From Actinomycetes bacterium (GTDB lineage Bacteria; Actinomycetota; Acidimicrobiia; Acidimicrobiales; Palsa-688): a stretch of 34,895 bases of DNA. The notes beneath the pieces were generated by a model, which made no database searches, was not told the origin of the DNA, and saw only the letters and a list, made by a program, of their open reading frames with translations. The translations under genes were made by a program, and so were the position numbers. Location: positions 5,802 through 40,696 of the forward strand of contig JAKCDU010000029.1 in the NCBI GenBank assembly GCA_021838445.1, given 5' to 3'. Shown in pieces: positions 7,571-17,858 of the stretch. The first letter of the stretch is position 1, and the number at the start of each line of letters is the position of its first letter.

Positions 7571-7603
7571 TCAGAGGCGGTGGGCGGCGGGTCAGAGGCG
7601 GTG
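7571..7603. repeat. 12-bp direct repeat spanning the helicase stop codon
   Basis: TCAGAGGCGGTG occurs at 7571-7582 and again at 7592-7603, 21 bp apart. The second copy encodes the last codons and the stop of the helicase on the minus strand, so the first is a duplicated stop-codon context. It lies in the 54-bp gap between convergent genes. Confidence 0.7.
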
Positions 7604-10315
7604 AAGGCCGGCGAAGCGCAGTACGGCTTCCCCGGTGCGGTCCGATTCGTCGAGGTCCACGGTGAAGCGCAACACCCACTCGCGGTGGCCAGCGGGGTCG
7701 TCGAGGGTCTGGGTCACGTCCCAGGTCCGCCCTTCGGCCCGAACCGCGAAGAGGGTCCCGGAGCGGGCGTCGCCGCCCATGCCGACACCGTCGTGCTCGT
7801 CGAAGTACTCAGCGGCCGCCTCCTGCCAGCGGCGGGCGTCGAAGCCCGAGCCGGCGTCGAGCTCGCCGAGCCCGGCGAAATCCCGGCGGCCCATCAGCTC
7901 CACCCGGCGGAAGGCCGCGTTTCTCACCATCACCGAGAAGGCCCGGGTGTTGGCCGTGAGGGGCGGGGGGGTGGGGGTGGCCGCCGCCGGAGAAGCTGCT
8001 GCCAGCGCCGGGAGTTGGGCGAGGGTCTGTTCGGGGTGGGCCAGGGCCTCCCACTCGTCGAGCAGGCTGGAGTCGACCTGGCGTACCAGCTCGCCGAGCC
8101 ACTCGGTCACGTCGATCAGCTCGTCGGTCTTGGCGTCCTCGGGAACGGACTGGACCAGCCCCCGGTAGGCGTCTGACAGGTAGCGAAGCAGCAGACCCTC
8201 GGAGCGGGCCAGACCGTAGAGGGCTACGTAGTCGGCGAAGCCCATGGCCCGCTCCCACATGTCGCGCACCACGGACTTCGGTTTGACGTTGAAATCCGAG
8301 GCCCAGGGATGACGGGAGCGGTAGACGTCGAAGGCCTCGTAGAGCTCCTCGCCGAGAGGTTTGGGCCATGTCAGCTCGTCGAGGACCCTCATACGGTCCT
8401 CGTACTCGACGCCTTCGGCCTTCAGCCGGGTGACGGTCTCGGCGCGCAGGCGGTCGAGCTGGGCGGCCAGAACCGGTCCGGGGTTCTCCAGGGTGGCTTC
8501 GACGATCGACACCGCGTCGAGGGCCCACTCGTCGCTGGCCTCGAGGCGGGGCAGTACGTCGAGGACGAACGGGGAGAGAGGCTGGTTGAGAGCGAAGTTG
8601 GCCTGCAGGTCCTCGGTGACGCGCACCCGCCGGCCGAGCTCGTCGGGGCGGTCGAGGACTTCGAGGGCGCCGGCGTCGAGCAGCGAGCGGTACAGGGCGA
8701 TGGCCCGGCGGATGTGGCGGCGCTGGGCCGGTCGGCTCTCGTGGTTATCGGTCAGGAGCCGCCGCAGGGCGGCGCAGCCGTCACCGGGGCGGTCGAGGAC
8801 CCCGATGAGCATGCCGTGGGTGACCTTGAATCGGGACTCGAGGGGTTCGGGCGGGGCCGCCACCAGACGGTTGAAGGTGTCCTCGCTCCAGGGCACATAT
8901 CCCCTGGGGGGTTGGGGCCGCACCACCTTGCGGCGCTTCTTAGGGTCGTCACCGGCCTTGGCCAGGGCCCGTTCGGTCTCGATCACGTGCTCGGGGGCCT
9001 GCACCACGACCGACCCCTCGCGGTCGTAGCCGGCACGCCCGGCCCGGCCCGAGATCTGGTGGAACTCGCGGGCGGTCAGGAGCCGGCTGGTCGAGCCGTC
9101 GTACTTGGCCAGGCCGGTCAGGAGCACCGTCCTGATGGGGACGTTGATCCCGACGCCCAGGGTGTCGGTGCCGCAGATGACCTTGAGCTGCCCGGCCTGG
9201 GCCAGGCGTTCGACCAGACGCCGGTAGCGGGGCAGCATGCCGGCGTGGTGGACGCCGATCCCGGCCCGGACGAAACGGGACAGGACCTGGCCGAACCCGG
9301 GTGAGAAGCGGAACCCGGCGATCTCCTCGGAGATACGGTCACGCTCGGCCCGGGTCGCCACCGCCACCGAGGTGAGCGCCTGGGCCCGGGCGACCGCGTC
9401 TTTCTGGGTGAAGTGCACCACATACACGGGTGCCCGGCCGGCTTCGAGCAGGCCCTCGATGGTCTCGTGGATGGGAGTGCGGCTGTAGGCGAAGTCGAGG
9501 GGTACGGGACGGGTGGCGGACCGGACCACGGCCACCGGCCTCCCGGTCCGCCGGCGCAGGTCGGCCTCGAAGCGGCGGGTGTCGCCCAGGGTCGCAGACA
9601 TGAGCAGGAACTGGGAGCGTCCCAGTTCGAGGAGCGGCACCTGCCAGGCCCAGCCCCGGTCGGGTTCGGCGTAGAAGTGGAACTCGTCCATGACCACCTG
9701 GTCGACGGGCGCATCGGGACCGTCACGCAGGGCCAGGTTGGCGAGGATCTCAGCGGTGGCGCAGATGACCGGGGCGTCGCGGTTGACGGTCGCGTCGCCG
9801 GTGGCCATCCCGACTCGTTCGGGGCCCAGCTCGGAGGCCAGGTCGAAAAATTTTTCCGAGACCAAAGCCTTGATGGGCGCGGTGTACCACGAGCGTCGGC
9901 CCTCGCACACGGCCCAGAAGTGGGCGGCGAGGGCGATGAGGCTCTTGCCCGAGCCGGTGGGGGTGTTGACGATCACGTGGGACCCCGACATGGCCTCGAG
10001 GATCGACTCCTCCTGGGCCGGGTAGAGGCTCAGGCCGCGGGCCTCGGTCCAGGCGAGGAACCGCTCGAGCGGCCCGGCGCCGGCCAGGGCCGCGGGCTCG
10101 TCGGCCCGGCCCGGCAGGAAGTCCGACAGCCGGGCCCGCCGCCCACCCACGTCGTCCGCCCCGCCATCGAGCGGCCCGACCGCGGGGCCAGCTGCGGTGC
10201 CGGCGGTGTCGGTGGTGTCGGTGTCGGTGTCGGTATCGCCGGGAGTGGGGTCAGCTGCGTCGTCGCCCGCGGTGCCGGCGGCGTGCCCGGGGTGGTCAGG
10301 GTCAGCGTCGGGCAT
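7592..10315 (-). CDS. Ski2-like DEAD/DEAH-box RNA helicase with C-terminal DUF3516 region
   Basis: A 907-residue superfamily 2 helicase. Residues 1-80 are an acidic low-complexity tail with an Asp-Thr repeat. Domain 1 has motif I NTPTGSGKS (about 117-125), motif II DEFH (210-213) and motif III SAT (240-242). Domain 2 has VHHAGMLPRYR, GTDTLGVGINVP and motif VI QISGRAGRAG. The remaining ~420 residues match the extended helical region of DUF3516-type actinobacterial helicases. Family members unwind structured RNA and are thought to act in RNA turnover or ribosome maturation; activity here is inferred. ATG 10315 is the first Met after a non-conserved stretch and begins the acidic tail; the ribosome-binding site is weak, so the start is only moderately sure. 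It is divergent from the selenoprotein-like gene. Confidence 0.9.
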   Translation of the reverse strand: MPDADPDHPGHAAGTAGDDAADPTPGDTDTDTDTTDTAGTAAGPAVGPLDGGADDVGGRRARLSDFLPGRADEPAALAGAGPLERFLAWTEARGLSLYPAQEESILEAMSGSHVIVNTPTGSGKSLIALAAHFWAVCEGRRSWYTAPIKALVSEKFFDLASELGPERVGMATGDATVNRDAPVICATAEILANLALRDGPDAPVDQVVMDEFHFYAEPDRGWAWQVPLLELGRSQFLLMSATLGDTRRFEADLRRRTGRPVAVVRSATRPVPLDFAYSRTPIHETIEGLLEAGRAPVYVVHFTQKDAVARAQALTSVAVATRAERDRISEEIAGFRFSPGFGQVLSRFVRAGIGVHHAGMLPRYRRLVERLAQAGQLKVICGTDTLGVGINVPIRTVLLTGLAKYDGSTSRLLTAREFHQISGRAGRAGYDREGSVVVQAPEHVIETERALAKAGDDPKKRRKVVRPQPPRGYVPWSEDTFNRLVAAPPEPLESRFKVTHGMLIGVLDRPGDGCAALRRLLTDNHESRPAQRRHIRRAIALYRSLLDAGALEVLDRPDELGRRVRVTEDLQANFALNQPLSPFVLDVLPRLEASDEWALDAVSIVEATLENPGPVLAAQLDRLRAETVTRLKAEGVEYEDRMRVLDELTWPKPLGEELYEAFDVYRSRHPWASDFNVKPKSVVRDMWERAMGFADYVALYGLARSEGLLLRYLSDAYRGLVQSVPEDAKTDELIDVTEWLGELVRQVDSSLLDEWEALAHPEQTLAQLPALAAASPAAATPTPPPLTANTRAFSVMVRNAAFRRVELMGRRDFAGLGELDAGSGFDARRWQEAAAEYFDEHDGVGMGGDARSGTLFAVRAEGRTWDVTQTLDDPAGHREWVLRFTVDLDESDRTGEAVLRFAGLHRL

Positions 10316-10435
10316 GGATACCTGTGTACCCGACCCTGCCCCCACCCGGGCGGCCAGCTGACCCGGCCGGCCCGCGCCCCGGTGCCGGTCGGGTGTCGAC
10401 GTGGGTTGGGGCGGCGCCGGTAGGGTCGCGCCGCG

Positions 10436-11328
10436 ATGAGCGTCGACGACACTCTTGCCGCCCACCTGGCGGCGCTACCGGTCCCCGAGTTCGCCGTACC
10501 GTTGTTCGTGACCCCGCCGCCGCTGTCGGAGGCGACCGTGGCGGACGAGACCATGTCCACGATCCGCCTCGACAGTGGACCGGCGGCCGCCGCCGCTCTG
10601 CGCCAGATCGGCGTCGACGTAGTGCTGCTGACCCCCGTCTGACCCCTCTGTCCGCGCACCGTGGGTGCGCTCTCGCACATCTTCGAAGCCCACGGCCTGG
10701 CCACCGTCGGGTCTACCCGACGGGTGACATCCCGGAGCGGATGCGGCCGCCCCGGTCCCTGGTCGCCCGCTTTCCCCTGGGTCGACCACTCGGTCATCCC
10801 CGCGACCCGAAGTTCCAGAGGGGGGTCCTGTCGGCGGCATTCGCCCTGCTCTCGGCGCTGGCCGGACCGGTGACCGACACGTTTCCCGAGGTCATCTCCG
10901 ACCAGGCCGACGTGGCCCTGTCATGCCCCCTGCCGCCGCGCTACGACCCCGACGTCCCGGCGGCCCTGGACGAGGCCGGGGCTCTGCGTTCAGCGTTCGA
11001 GCGGGGCTCATCGGGGGGCTTCTCGGTGGCCGAGCCCGACGCGGTGGAGGCCGCACTTTCGGCCTTCGACCGTGTGGCCCACGGAACCCCCTGGAAAGAG
11101 GCCGGGCTGCCCCGGGACCTCCCCGGCGCGGCTCGGGCGGTGCTCGGCTACTACCAGCAGGCGGCACTCGGCCTCTCCGACTGTGTGCCGGCAGCCCGCC
11201 AGGCCGAATCCTGGTACGTGCAGCACACCGCCGCCGAAGCGACCATGCGGGCGGCGCGCGACCAGCTCAAAGATCAGGGCGCCCCGACCCCGCTGTGGTT
11301 CTACCTGTTGCCGGCCACACAGAGCTGA
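10436..11328 (+). CDS. GrdB-like reductase family protein, candidate selenoprotein (in-frame TGA), with a -1 frame disruption
   Basis: Frame 10436 opens at ATG (an in-frame TAG lies 15 nt upstream, so no earlier start is possible). It reads 68 codons to VVLLTPV, meets TGA at 10640-10642, and continues in the same frame as PLCPRTVGALSHIFEAHGLATV. Reading TGA as selenocysteine gives residue 69 and a U-P-L-C motif (Cys72), the UxxC redox motif of GrdB/PrdB-type proteins. Around 10709-10728 the frame must move by -1; it then reads ERMRPPRSLVARFPLGRPLG, GTPWKEAGLPRDLP and VPAARQAESWY to the stop at 11328, segments I recognise from the GrdB-like family. The 893-nt length is one short of a multiple of three, so a missing base is the simplest explanation. 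TAGGGT 9 nt before ATG could be a -10 for a leaderless transcript. Function: probably a thiol/selenol reductase; substrate unknown. A decaying pseudogene is the main alternative. Confidence 0.72.
10654..10670 (+). promoter_or_regulatory. Candidate bacterial SECIS hairpin
   Basis: GCGCACC-GTG-GGTGCGC is a perfect 7-bp stem with a 3-nt loop. It begins 11 nt after the TGA at 10640-10642, and its loop begins 18 nt after it. Known bacterial SECIS elements (for example E. coli fdhF) have a 17-nt upper hairpin about 11 nt after UGA, with G and U in the apical loop, where SelB binds. Size, spacing and the GU loop all match. A competing hairpin (GTGCG 10665-10669 with CGCAC 10674-10678) is possible, so RNA folding is not certain. 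Confidence 0.65.
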
Positions 11329-11389: not shown

Positions 11390-12118
11390 ATGAGCTGGAT
11401 CAAGATTTTTTCCCGGGCCAACAGCTACGCCCAGGCCAAGGCGGAGTCCGAGTTCGACGCCCACGCCGACCCCAAGGTGCAGGTCGAGCAGGCCATAGCC
11501 GGCATGCAGGAGCACCACCGGGACCTCCAGGCGGCGGCCAGCCACGTCATCGCCCAGGAGAAGATGGCCAAGATGCGCCTCGCCGACCTGTCCGATCAGG
11601 AGGCCAAGTGCACCAAGTCGGCTCTGGCCGCCAAGCAGCAGGGCAACCTCGATGCGGCCAGAACCTTCGCCACCCGCATCGCCAGTCTGCGGGAGCAGAT
11701 ACAGAGCCTGAGCGCCCAGATCCCCCAACTCGAGCAGGCGGCTAACGACGCCCGCACCGCCGTCCAGGAGTCGGCCGACCAACTCCAGGCCAAGCTCAAC
11801 GAGAAGAGCACCATCCTGGCCCAGATCGACCAGGCCAACATGCAGAAGGAGATGGCGTCCAGCCTGCAGCAGGTGAGCGACCTGACCCGGACCAGCGACG
11901 TGCCGTCATTCGATGAGATCAAGCAGAAGGTGGCCTCCCAGTTCGCCGAGGCCCAGGCGGTGACGGAACTGTCGAGCAGCAGCCCCGAGGTGACCGAAAT
12001 GCACGCCCACCACGCCGAGATGATGAGCGAGGCCGACGCCATCCTGGCCGAGCTCGACTCGGGCACGGCCCAGCCGGCCGCCCTCGGGCCGGCGCCCACC
12101 GCTCCCAGCGCCGGCTGA
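11390..12118 (+). CDS. pspA: PspA/IM30 family membrane-stress protein
   Basis: A 242-residue, almost wholly helical protein. It starts with an amphipathic segment (MSWIKIFSRANSYAQAK) and continues as a long charged coiled coil (DPKVQVEQAIAGMQEHHRDL, LAAKQQGNLDAARTFATRI, LREQIQSLSAQIPQLEQ). PspA proteins bind the inner leaflet of stressed membranes, oligomerise and limit proton leakage. ATG 11390 is preceded by TGGAGG about 8 nt upstream; an in-frame GTG at 11381 is directly against the Shine-Dalgarno and is rejected. It is 61 nt after the selenoprotein-like gene and 61 nt before a glycine-rich protein on the same strand, so the three may form one transcription unit. The Ala/Pro-rich C-terminal tail is short and looks disordered. 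Confidence 0.85.
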   Translation: MSWIKIFSRANSYAQAKAESEFDAHADPKVQVEQAIAGMQEHHRDLQAAASHVIAQEKMAKMRLADLSDQEAKCTKSALAAKQQGNLDAARTFATRIASLREQIQSLSAQIPQLEQAANDARTAVQESADQLQAKLNEKSTILAQIDQANMQKEMASSLQQVSDLTRTSDVPSFDEIKQKVASQFAEAQAVTELSSSSPEVTEMHAHHAEMMSEADAILAELDSGTAQPAALGPAPTAPSAG

Positions 12119-13392: not shown

Positions 13393-14400
13393 TCAGTTCG
13401 ACCTGGTGGTCGCCGGGGTGGGAGTGCGGCGGGGCCGCCCGGTGGCGGATTCCCCGGAGCGGCGCGGCCCCGGGCCGCGATCGTGGCCGTCCCTCGTCGT
13501 AGCCGCTGACGCCGCACCTTCGAGGGCACGGGCCAGGCCCCTGAGGAACAGCCGGAGGGCTTGCCGGGCTCTCGCCGCCAGCTCAGTGGCGGCGAGAGGG
13601 GGCAGGTGCCCGGGGAGCTGGTGCCAGGTCCCCTCGACGCGCAGTTCAGCTCTTTGGCTGTCGACGGCGATCACCCTGAGGGCTCCCTCGAAGCGGTTCC
13701 GGCGGGCGCCCCCGACGCTCCAGCAGAGGGTGAAGTAGCCGGTGGCCTTGCCTCCGGCCGGCACCATCGTGAGCTCCTCGACTACAGGTGGCCCACCCAG
13801 GTCGGCGTCCTCGGCGCAGGCCTCGCCCATGGCCCGGCCGGCTAGATCGATGAGGGCCTCGGAGAGGGAACCGGCCAGGTTCTGCACCTGCGGTGCCGAT
13901 ACCTCCACCTGTACCGAGTCAGCCACGTCGACCACGAGCGGATGCGAGCGGTGGGAGTCGGCGGGCAGGGGCAGTATCCCGGCCTCTATGGCCGCGTCCT
14001 GCTCGGCCAGCTCGGCCAGGGTGGTCGTGGCCAGCACCTCACGGACCCGAGCGGTGGCCTTGGTCCACGTCTCGTGGAGGGGGCAGACCTGATCCCACCG
14101 GCAGGGGCCGTCACCGAGGGCGCAGCGCTGGGCCCGAAGGTGGCCTTCGGCGGCTTCGACCACCTCCAGCACGCTGATCTGCTCGGGGGGGCGGGCCAGA
14201 CGGTAGCCGCCGTCGCGCCCGGCCCGGGAGGTGGCCAGGTCGGAGCGGACCAGGTCGCCGAGGATCTGGGAGGCGAAGCTGTGGGGGATCTCGGTGTCGG
14301 CCACGACCTCCCGGATCTTCCGGGGGGGTGTCTCGGCGAAGGCTCGGGCCAGGGAGAGTGCGGCGCGCATCACGTAGTCGCCTCGCCGCGACAGGGTCAT
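13393..14400 (-). CDS. Rrf2-family regulator with [Fe-S]-type cysteines and an extra C-terminal domain
   Basis: A 335-residue protein. Residues 1-135 are a Rrf2 winged helix (MTLSRRGDYVMRAALSLAR, IPHSFASQILGDLVRSDL, GRDGGYRLARPPEQISVLEV). They carry Cys93, Cys100 and Cys106 in CALGDGPCRWDQVCPLH, the three-cysteine pattern that binds an iron-sulphur cluster in IscR and NsrR. Typical Rrf2 proteins end near residue 150. Here about 185 more residues follow, with a folded-looking alpha/beta segment (VQVEVSAPQVQNLAGSLSEA, GYFTLCWSVGG, RAELRVEGTWHQLPGH) and an Arg/Pro-rich tail. I do not recognise that domain. The start is placed at ATG 14400 by alignment with the family; no strong ribosome-binding site is visible. 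It is the last gene of the redox operon and probably regulates it, sensing redox state or NO. Confidence 0.82.
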   Translation of the reverse strand: MTLSRRGDYVMRAALSLARAFAETPPRKIREVVADTEIPHSFASQILGDLVRSDLATSRAGRDGGYRLARPPEQISVLEVVEAAEGHLRAQRCALGDGPCRWDQVCPLHETWTKATARVREVLATTTLAELAEQDAAIEAGILPLPADSHRSHPLVVDVADSVQVEVSAPQVQNLAGSLSEALIDLAGRAMGEACAEDADLGGPPVVEELTMVPAGGKATGYFTLCWSVGGARRNRFEGALRVIAVDSQRAELRVEGTWHQLPGHLPPLAATELAARARQALRLFLRGLARALEGAASAATTRDGHDRGPGPRRSGESATGRPRRTPTPATTRSN

Positions 14401-14499
14401 GTCCATCAGCGCGAGGTGGACGGGCCAGCCCCGCAGGGGGCGGTCAGTCTCGAGGACGGACATGGCGGGAGGTCGGGAACGGGGCCCACATGACCCAGC

Positions 14500-16245
14500 C
14501 TATTGGTCGCCGGACGAACCGGCGGGGTGGGATCCGACGGCCCGGCGTGAGGCGCGGGGCTGCTCGTGGAGGACGGCTCGGGCTGCCCGGCGTCCTTGGG
14601 CCATGGCCTCCACGACGGTGGACGGCCCGATCAGGGCATCCCCGGCCACCCAGGTGCGCTCCCGGAACGGCGATGCCGAGGCGACCAGGGCCACCTCGCG
14701 ACCGAGGGCCAGCCGTCCCACCGGGCGACTCCGGGCGGCGACGGGTGCCGGGTTGGCCAGGATGCCGCTGGCCTGCCACCGGCGGTCGGGCACTCCGTGG
14801 GCCTCGCGTCGTACCGGGGTCCCGGCCAGCTGCGAGGTGAAGGCCGGGTCGAGGCGGTAGCCCATGGCCGCCACCACCAGGTCCACGCCGATCTGGGTCC
14901 CTCCGTGGTCGAGGACCCGAGGGCGCGACGTCGCCGACTTCTGCTCTGTCTGGGACAAGGTGGCGGTCCCGACCCGTCCGTCTATGGCGCCGATGGCGCT
15001 GAGGGTGCAGGAGAAGCGGACCTCCACTCCTTCGTCCTCGGCCTCGGCCAGCTCGTCGGACCGGACGGGGGCGTAGCGGCGGTCCATCCAGTCGACGCAC
15101 ACAGCCTCGGCTCCGAGGCGCCGCGCGCTGCGGGCCACGTCCATGGCGGTGTTGCCGGCTCCGAGGACCAGTACCTTCACCGGGCGCCCGTCGCGGGGGG
15201 TCAGATCCCCGAGACCCTCGCCGTGGTCCAGGGCCCATTTGGCCCGCTTGAGGAAAGTGGTGGCGTCCTCGACTCCGGGCAGGTCGGCACCGGCCACCGG
15301 TAGGCTCAGGGCCACGCCGGCGCCGTGGGCCAGGATCACCGCGTCGTGGAGCTCGAGCAGGTCGTCGAGGTCCTCGGCGGAGACCCGCACGCCGCATCGA
15401 AGGTCGGCCCCGGCGGCCAGCAGGTCGGCCCAGGGTCGGTCGCTCACCTCGGTCGGCAAGGTGAAGCTCGGGATCCCCCAGTTGAGCAGCCCGCCCGGTC
15501 GGGGGTCCGCTTCATAGACCGTGACCTTGGCCGAGGCGGCCAGGAGGTCCCAGGCCGCGCCCATACCGGCCGGGCCGGAGCCGACCACGGCCACCGACAT
15601 GCCCTCTCCGAGGGCCGAGGTGACACCTACGGGCGCAACGGGGGCATGGTCGGCGACGAACCTCTCCAGTGCCGATATGGCGACCGGCTGGGAGCCGGCG
15701 AGGGACCACGTGCAGGCCCCTTCGCACTGCAGCGACGCGTCGCATACCCGTGAGCACACGTCGGGCATAACCGTGGTCCGCCGTAGCGTCTCGTGGGCTG
15801 CGTCGAGGTCGCCGGTGGATATGGCGGTGATGAACGCCGGGATGTCGTTGTGGGCCGGGCAGCCCCGCACGCAGGTCGGATCGGGGCATGACAGGCAGCG
15901 CGACGCCTCGGTCAACGCTTCCTCCCACGAGACCAGACCCTGGCGGATCTCGGTGGTGTCACCGGCGATGCTTCCGGGGTGCTGCACCGAAACGGCCCGT
16001 CGGTCGGCGACGCGCGCCGGGCCGGCGACGGCGATGGCCGAGAAGGGGCAGGTGCGTACGCACTGACGGCACCCGACGCAGGACGTGTCGTCGGCCACGA
16101 TCACCCAGCGTTCGGGGTCCATGCCCAAAGCGCCGACCGGGCAGCGCACGAGGCACTCCTGGCAGCCCGCGCAGCGGTCGGTGAGGACCGTGACGTGGCA
16201 TTCTCCCTCGGGGAGATCGAGATGACGGGATTGTGTCATGGTCAT
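14500..16245 (-). CDS. Ferredoxin-GltD-like FAD/NAD(P) oxidoreductase
   Basis: A 581-residue iron-sulphur flavoprotein. Residues 20-70 are a two-cluster ferredoxin (Cys25/28/31/35 in CAGCQECLVRC and Cys56/59/62/66 in CVGCRQCVRTC). Residues 110-200 match the Fe-S domain of the glutamate synthase small subunit (CLSCPDPTCVRGCPAHNDIP, Cys164/168/174/178). An FAD-binding fold follows (VVGSGPAGMGAA, about 220), with an inserted NAD(P)-binding fold (VLGAGNTAMDVAR) and the closing FAD motif WVAGDALIGPSTVVEAM. It would move electrons between NAD(P)H and ferredoxin clusters. GGGAG lies 8 nt before ATG 16245, 12 nt after the membrane ferredoxin stop. The partner is probably that membrane protein. No glutamate synthase large subunit is present, so it is unlikely to be GltD itself. 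Confidence 0.85.
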   Translation of the reverse strand: MTMTQSRHLDLPEGECHVTVLTDRCAGCQECLVRCPVGALGMDPERWVIVADDTSCVGCRQCVRTCPFSAIAVAGPARVADRRAVSVQHPGSIAGDTTEIRQGLVSWEEALTEASRCLSCPDPTCVRGCPAHNDIPAFITAISTGDLDAAHETLRRTTVMPDVCSRVCDASLQCEGACTWSLAGSQPVAISALERFVADHAPVAPVGVTSALGEGMSVAVVGSGPAGMGAAWDLLAASAKVTVYEADPRPGGLLNWGIPSFTLPTEVSDRPWADLLAAGADLRCGVRVSAEDLDDLLELHDAVILAHGAGVALSLPVAGADLPGVEDATTFLKRAKWALDHGEGLGDLTPRDGRPVKVLVLGAGNTAMDVARSARRLGAEAVCVDWMDRRYAPVRSDELAEAEDEGVEVRFSCTLSAIGAIDGRVGTATLSQTEQKSATSRPRVLDHGGTQIGVDLVVAAMGYRLDPAFTSQLAGTPVRREAHGVPDRRWQASGILANPAPVAARSRPVGRLALGREVALVASASPFRERTWVAGDALIGPSTVVEAMAQGRRAARAVLHEQPRASRRAVGSHPAGSSGDQ

Positions 16246-16257
16246 GGTCGGAGCTCC

Positions 16258-17814
16258 CTAGTCGGCGGCGTGCATGATCACGTACAGGAGAGCGGCCCCG
16301 GTGCCGGTGGCGAGTACGACGCTCATGGTGGTGAGGCGCACCCCGAGGGCGCTGCGGCTTATGGGAATGAGCTCCCGCCCGGCGATGCGCCAGGTGGCCC
16401 ACATGGCGGCGGCAGTGCCCAGGGCGATGATGGCTACCTGGGTGAAGACGATCCACCCGTTGGTCATGAGCGAGAAGTTGTAGATGGGGGACCGGGAGGA
16501 GGAGAACCCGGCGAGATGCTGAACCGACGTGATGACCCGCGGTGAGTGCTGGAAGAATTTCGGCAACTGGCGGGCGAAGTAGTCGGCTCCGACGACGGGG
16601 ATCAGCCCATAGGAGAGGGGGGTGAAGTAGGCCCGGAAGCGGGAAGAGCGATCCATGAAGTTGCCCGGCCGAAACAGTTCGACGGCCCGGTTGGCCAGGC
16701 CCGCACTCATGGCCCAAGCGATCCCAGCAACAACGGCTGCGACCAGGGCGATGGTCCCGAGGTAGGCCAGCGGGTTGGGGTAGTGCGGGAAGTCCAGATT
16801 GGTGTTGAGCCAGTTGTCCACGTTGCTGTAGACGTTGGTGGCGTTGAGCTGTTGGTAGAGGACCAGGCCCCAGAGTGCCGCGATCCCCCAGGCCACGTCG
16901 GTGCGGCGTCGGCGGGGCGCGATGACCGAGGTGAGGGGCTTCTGCAGGAACAGCCCCACATTGTCCTCCGGGCAGGACTTGAAGCACTCTGAGCACAGCC
17001 CGCAGCTGAGGTTCGAGTCCGCGCTGCCGGGCCAGGTGTACCACGGGCATCCGTATCCCTTATCGCTGCCTCTCATGCAGTCTTTGGTCTCGCACGAGAC
17101 GCACACCTCCCGGTCGCGGGTCCTAAAGCCGGCGACCGAACCCATGGACCCGACCGACCCGATGAGCGTCGAGAGGGGACAAACGTAGCGACAGAAGGTG
17201 CGGCGCTCGAACACGAGGAAGAAGATCAGGGCGCTACCCACGATGCCCACGACCATCCACGACGTGTCAGCGGGGTTTCCGGGTCCGGCAATGTTGAAGA
17301 ACTCCTCGATCCAGGTGAGCAGGAGGAAGGAGGCGACAGGGATCAAGAAGCCGTAGCGGGCGAGGGACTCGGGGAACTTCCGGCCCAAACCGAAGGTCTT
17401 CTGCGTGCGCTGCCAGAAGCTTCGGCGCTGGATCCACTCGGCGAAGCCGCCGAAGGGACACATGGCGCACCAAGCCCGCCCGACGACGACCATCATCACG
17501 AACACCAGGCAGAACCACACGTACCAGGTGATGGCCGTACCGAAGTTGAGGCCCGGATCGGCCGTACCGAGCAGACCGACGAAGATGACCGTCCAGAACA
17601 CGACCTGATTGGGGACGATCAGGAGAAACTGGAACTTCCGGTTCTTCACGAGGCGGCCCAGGCGGGGGGAGCGGGCCAGCACGTCGAGGCCGGGATCAGG
17701 GTCGCTGGACTCGAAGCGCTGGTTCATGCCCTGGCGTTGAGGCGGCCTCAGCCGCACCGCTGCTTCGATGGGGTCTTCGGGGCCTCGAGCGGGAGCCTGA
17801 TCGATCAATGCCAT
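16258..17814 (-). CDS. NosR/NapH-like polyferredoxin membrane protein
   Basis: A 518-residue membrane iron-sulphur protein. Several hydrophobic segments are visible (about residues 63-82, 95-112, 155-170, 186-202, and at least three more after residue 300). Cysteine motifs include WCAMCP (Cys116/119) and CRYVCP (Cys208/212), both as in NosR/NapH/RdxA-type proteins. A ferredoxin-like region follows, with Cys238, 241, 246 and 256, then [12 protein letters not shown] (Cys271/274/277/281). Such proteins pass electrons from the quinol pool or a flavin to a redox enzyme. ATG 17814 is preceded by AAAGGAGG, which decides it over the frame to 17853. First gene of the operon; the promoter at 17859-17887 has a palindrome in its spacer. 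The terminal acceptor is not in the window. Confidence 0.85.
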
Positions 17815-17858
17815 GGCACCGGCCCCTCCTTTCTGATCGAGCTGACCAAACAACGTAT

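Follow-up and report, generated by a model that had tools for sequence, protein, structure and literature searches.

The window, that is, the whole stretch of 34,895 nt analysed here, carries on its plus strand a coding region (10436–11328) with an in-frame TGA. The region is flanked by a gene for a DEAD-box helicase with DUF3516 (7592–10465, minus strand) and a gene for a PspA/IM30 protein (11390–12118, plus strand), and the same order of helicase and PspA neighbours is found in G001, a genome of the same genus, and within the compared parts of G002, a second member of the genus. Farther along the window (13393–17853, minus strand), an Rrf2-type regulator stands beside an Fe-S/flavin oxidoreductase and an iron-sulfur protein of the Fer4_5 domain type. 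An ATG at 10436 is in frame with the TGA at 10640–10642, and translation through this codon yields ...LLTPV-U-PLC-PRTVGALSH..., in agreement with the read-through segment TPV-U-PLC-PRTVG given in the preliminary description. That description had also stated that coding similarity resumes right after the TGA, which is borne out by the homologue search and the alignment with G001 and G002, and that a conceptual translation halted at the TGA gives only 68 residues and hides the gene, which is correct. The features of the region are as follows.

10436–10542, plus strand: N-terminal coding fragment from the start ATG to codon 36, matching residues 1–36 of the intact same-genus proteins
10542–10543, junction: point at which the DNA alignment with G001 and G002 shows 249 bp (83 codons) deleted without loss of frame, with a two-base overlap (GG)
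10543–10710, plus strand: middle coding fragment, which encodes the UxxC motif in the frame of the start codon, from translation and alignment to homologues
10640–10642, plus strand: TGA, predicted selenocysteine codon (U of U-P-L-C), TGA in all of the best 80 fetched homologues and aligned with U151 of Terrisporobacter PrdB
10653–10671, plus strand: SECIS-type hairpin, from covariation and a recoding test, with core stem 10654–10659 paired to 10665–10670 and loop CGTGG at 10660–10664
10710–10711, junction: point within a G run at which the DNA alignment with G001 and G002 shows the frame shifted by one base
10711–11328, plus strand: C-terminal coding fragment in another frame, ending with the TGA at 11326–11328 and matching the rest of the homologues, including their C-terminal extension
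10871–10873, plus strand: second TGA in the unshifted frame (U146), which would cut the read-through product at 145 residues

Any single sequence could carry an error, and a TGA may be an ordinary stop or a misread TGC or TGT. The codon, however, recurs throughout the relatives of the gene. In a first search of 61 related genomes, all 17 readable relatives have TGA at the same column, and the intact genes of G001 and G002 each contain a single internal TGA, at this position. When public genomes were scanned, 269 loci for relatives of this long form were located, and the best 80, fetched for a check of the column, all have TGA there; their source bins carry the labels Acidimicrobiia and related actinobacteria, Chloroflexi, Gammaproteobacteria, and others. 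As judged by matches to a long-form profile, the family is present in its long or short form in 85 of 296 sampled Acidimicrobiia genomes, nearly always with one TGA. The same column holds the TGA-encoded Sec151 in the PrdB of Terrisporobacter and a cysteine in that of Enterococcus. The in-frame UGA is thus conserved at a Sec/Cys column, with two alanine-containing homologues, discussed below, as the exceptions.

Directly 3' of the TGA, the family has a conserved hairpin with a stem of six to seven pairs and a five-base loop, which in the intact form begins 11–14 nt from the UGA. In an alignment of 18 sequences, 88.1% of the stem cells are paired, versus at most 49% when the partner columns are slid, and five of the seven pairs show changes on both sides. 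One pair, T-A in 36 and C-G in 31 of 68 distinct long-form sequences, connects the synonymous third base of an arginine codon with another codon, a pattern that constraint at the protein level alone would not yield. All six core pairs are formed in 78 of the 80 Sec forms (the best 80 of 269) and likewise in the window. When the window motif is recoded synonymously, just 0.37% of the variants retain all six. The folding energy of the window hairpin by itself is not unusual (z −0.81), and the case for a SECIS hairpin immediately downstream of the UGA rests on covariation.

The search for sel genes proposed in the preliminary description found the complete set: selA, selB, selD, and tRNA-Sec (selC) lie together in the same genome as the window, within 97–101 kb of contig C10, the three protein genes scoring above their cut-offs and the tRNA above its gathering score. 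Since the sel genes are present, the Sec column is conserved, the hairpin covaries, and PrdB has Sec in the same column, the TGA at 10640–10642 is, on comparative grounds, a selenocysteine codon by descent, as had been proposed. A sequencing error for TGC or TGT had been named as a possible refutation, and the recurrence of the codon in G001, G002, and 80 of 80 homologues speaks against it; with the covarying hairpin and the sel genes also opposed to an ordinary stop or an error, a site without selenocysteine is the least credible of the readings considered here.

Two homologues depart from the rule. Long-form genes in G245 (L136) and G211 (L137) have alanine (GCT and GCG, respectively) at the Sec column, giving the motif A-P-M-C in an otherwise open, full-length frame. 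The preliminary description had named a residue other than Cys or Sec in this column as a refutation; these two homologues answer to it in part, while the 80 TGA-containing genes and PrdB have Sec or Cys there. No selA was found in either genome (64% and 80% complete, respectively), while it was found in the other six genomes tested, and no tRNA-Sec scored above the gathering threshold in these two genomes; because both are incomplete, the absence of sel genes is suggestive. Moreover, the hairpin is broken in the alanine forms, which keep three of the six core pairs, compared with six of six in nearly all Sec forms. These features fit a loss of Sec use, not a wrongly assigned column, and suggest that a gene can lose Sec and still keep an open frame. 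The alanine homologues serve as a natural control that ties the loss of Sec to the loss of the hairpin. Literature searches found no paper on the replacement of Sec by alanine and none on UGA-containing selenoproteins in Acidimicrobiia.

The preliminary description had treated 10436–11328 as one gene read through the TGA and as a new selenoprotein. As an intact gene, it does not stand. The interval comprises 893 bases, which is not a multiple of three, and thus cannot be a single frame. Past approximately 10710, the start frame is out of register and soon meets the second TGA, and conserved coding resumes at 10711–11328 within an open reading frame that spans 10324–11328. In the search of the 61 related genomes, the window gene accordingly appeared as two pieces in two frames, corresponding to residues 1–92 and 70–297 of the joined query, while the gene is intact in a single frame of 395 and 380 residues in G001 and G002, respectively. 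Because of the deletion, the frame change, and the second TGA, the window copy thus lacks a frame that, as in bacterial selenoprotein genes, stays open past the UGA as far as the C-terminus. A gene caller could report the open reading frame 10324–11328 (plus strand, 334 residues); its first 129 residues are read in a frame that the family does not use.

The block missing from the window is present in relatives outside the genus and in genuine PrdB, so the difference represents a deletion in the window and not an insertion in G001 and G002. Of the 60 columns conserved at ≥90% among 45 relatives, 20 fall in the deleted block and 18 more lie past the frame change. The block includes D79, D86, and P92, none of which varies in the long forms, the short forms, or PrdB. 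No second copy of the family was found elsewhere in the window's genome. In the remaining codons, pN/pS is ~0.29 on the window branch, compared with 0.15 and 0.30 on the branches of the siblings G001 and G002; these codons still look constrained, and decay, if it has occurred, must be recent. A further point against decay is that the 249-bp deletion preserves the frame, an outcome that decay by itself would produce in one case out of three. The locus is probably a recently damaged copy of a PrdB-like selenoprotein gene, itself probably non-functional, whose intact form has about 380 (380–395) residues.

Alternatively, errors of assembly or sequencing might have produced both the frame change and the 249-bp gap, in a gene that the organism carries in intact, working form. 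The genome is a draft of 117 contigs in which a mixture of strains is conceivable, the frame change falls within a G run, where the sequence differs by one base, and the retained codons look constrained. Against this, no other unbalanced frame-changing gap occurs in conserved genes in the parts of the window that can be compared with G001 and G002, where every remaining gap is divisible by three in length, balanced, or intergenic. The large deletion also hits the same gene as the frame change, and its ends carry no long repeat that would explain a misassembly. Error is thus an unlikely account of the damage, although not a negligible one.

It could also be supposed that a shortened protein is made and used, a smaller enzyme arising from the in-frame deletion with the ribosome shifting frame at 10710. 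The deletion does preserve the frame and the codons past the frame change are still conserved, but the deletion removes a third of the 60 most conserved columns, the invariant D79, D86, and P92 among them, and no slippery heptamer of the type X XXY YYZ is visible at 10710|10711. A programmed frame change at this position was rejected for want of such a heptamer, and a functional shortened product is very improbable, only slightly less so than a TGA without selenocysteine. Recent damage to the gene is thus preferred.

The genome would nevertheless have reason to retain its Sec machinery. An FdhA-like alpha subunit of the formate dehydrogenase type (L128; G000:C88:35691-36437, minus strand) contains an in-frame TGA in the context ...ARIUHSS... 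and is predicted to be a second selenoprotein of the window's genome, one that still depends on Sec. Such a gene would need the machinery. With formate dehydrogenase as at least one further selenoprotein to be made, the persistence of the Sec machinery despite the damaged gene would be explained. The window may accordingly capture the probable decay of a selenoprotein gene in a genome that retains the means to make selenoproteins.

By homology, the intact family may function as a Sec/Cys redox enzyme. Following established selenoprotein biology, SelB carrying Sec-tRNA would recognize the hairpin and insert Sec at the UGA, the Sec/Cys pair of the UxxC motif would form a redox centre able to reduce a small substrate, and a thiol system would in turn re-reduce this centre. 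The intact protein probably does without a pyruvoyl partner of the kind that proline and glycine reductases have. In the window lineage, the loss of 249 bp of the conserved core and of the reading frame would leave at best a 145-residue product lacking the second half of the protein.

The genomic context of the long form offers little further guidance. Among the neighbourhoods of the best 80 homologues, no conserved partner was found; the largest common neighbour cluster occurs in 11 loci, and the neighbours are a mixture of sugar kinases, acyl-CoA carboxylase and dehydrogenase, PhyH, and transporters. As the neighbours are not conserved, gene context points to no substrate. The structure of the long form was predicted with confidence (mean pLDDT 92.3), and a Foldseek search with it returned no significant match in the PDB, while a second structure comparison recovered only common Rossmann-like arrangements (Z up to 7.4, residues 29–237). 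A sequence search of the PDB found no relative, and neither did a search of viral contigs for members of the family. One further locus (L139; G146:C1:34147-34731) is perhaps another decaying copy, since no more than the C-terminal half of its long-form homologue can be read. We tentatively put forward, as a serious possibility that is somewhat short of probable, that the intact long form is a separate and nearly Sec-obligate family of Acidimicrobiia and several other groups, working with no pyruvoyl partner, in which loss of the Sec machinery leads not to Cys but to Ala alongside the remaining Cys. The long-form subfamily defined here merits study via its intact relatives, and it illustrates how standard translation conceals a real Sec-encoding family in bacteria that have been little studied for selenium.

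As for known systems, a relation to GrdB/PrdB-type reductases had been proposed under the label GrdB-like. The relation holds, but PrdB-like is the more apt name. The intact sibling matches the PrdB profile (TIGR04483) with an E-value of 2e-29 over residues 28–221 (102.6 bits, below the curated cut-off of 300), whereas the GrdB/GrdF/GrdH profiles reach only 1e-8 or weaker; its score against GrdB (TIGR01917) is 18.8 bits, short of the curated cut-off of 602, and that against Pfam GRDB (PF07355) is 23.1 bits, marginally above the gathering score of 22. The window fragments gave no match to PF07355, and the two halves of the window copy, joined through X, scored 42.4 bits against TIGR04483 (cut-off 300). 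Searched separately against Pfam and NCBIfam, the halves gave nothing or weak PrdB matches, and the intact sibling was needed for the assignment. By these scores, PrdB is a nearer relative of the family than GrdB is. GrdB, GrdF, and GrdH are the selenoprotein B of glycine, sarcosine, and betaine reductase. Their resemblance to the family (PF07355, TIGR01917, TIGR01918, NF040794, NF040795) is a weak homology at the C-terminal end around UxxC, with scores far below those of PrdB and only ~70–125 residues aligned. The preliminary description had noted the absence of other glycine reductase subunits near the gene, and this agrees with the searches as far as they go: six genomes, of which three are single contigs, yielded neither GrdA (PF04723) nor a pyruvoyl-type partner (PrdA/GrdE-like, PF09338) in searches run without a positive control.

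With D-proline reductase PrdB, the family shares homology over residues 28–221, the same Sec/Cys column, the UxxC motif, and conserved residues around D86, P92, G103, P132, G199, and G203, and an annotated Terrisporobacter PrdB is 35% identical over residues 18–174. In contrast to PrdB, the long form has ~150 extra C-terminal residues and the motif UPLC instead of UGTC, and no prdA adjoins the family gene, whereas plasmid prd loci have prdA. PrdB and GrdB are established selenoprotein families in reviews (PMC9312934, PMC13188914). Seawater surveys of the Sargasso Sea in 2005 (PMC1088965) and of the Global Ocean Sampling set in 2008 (PMC2398784) both described UxxC selenoproteins named PrdB as abundant, so the kind of selenoprotein, put forward in the preliminary description as a candidate new one, was already known, and no new kind of system is added here. 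Compared by description with those surveys, the short forms found here (~275–335 residues, UPVCHQ) are plausible counterparts of the marine PrdB proteins.
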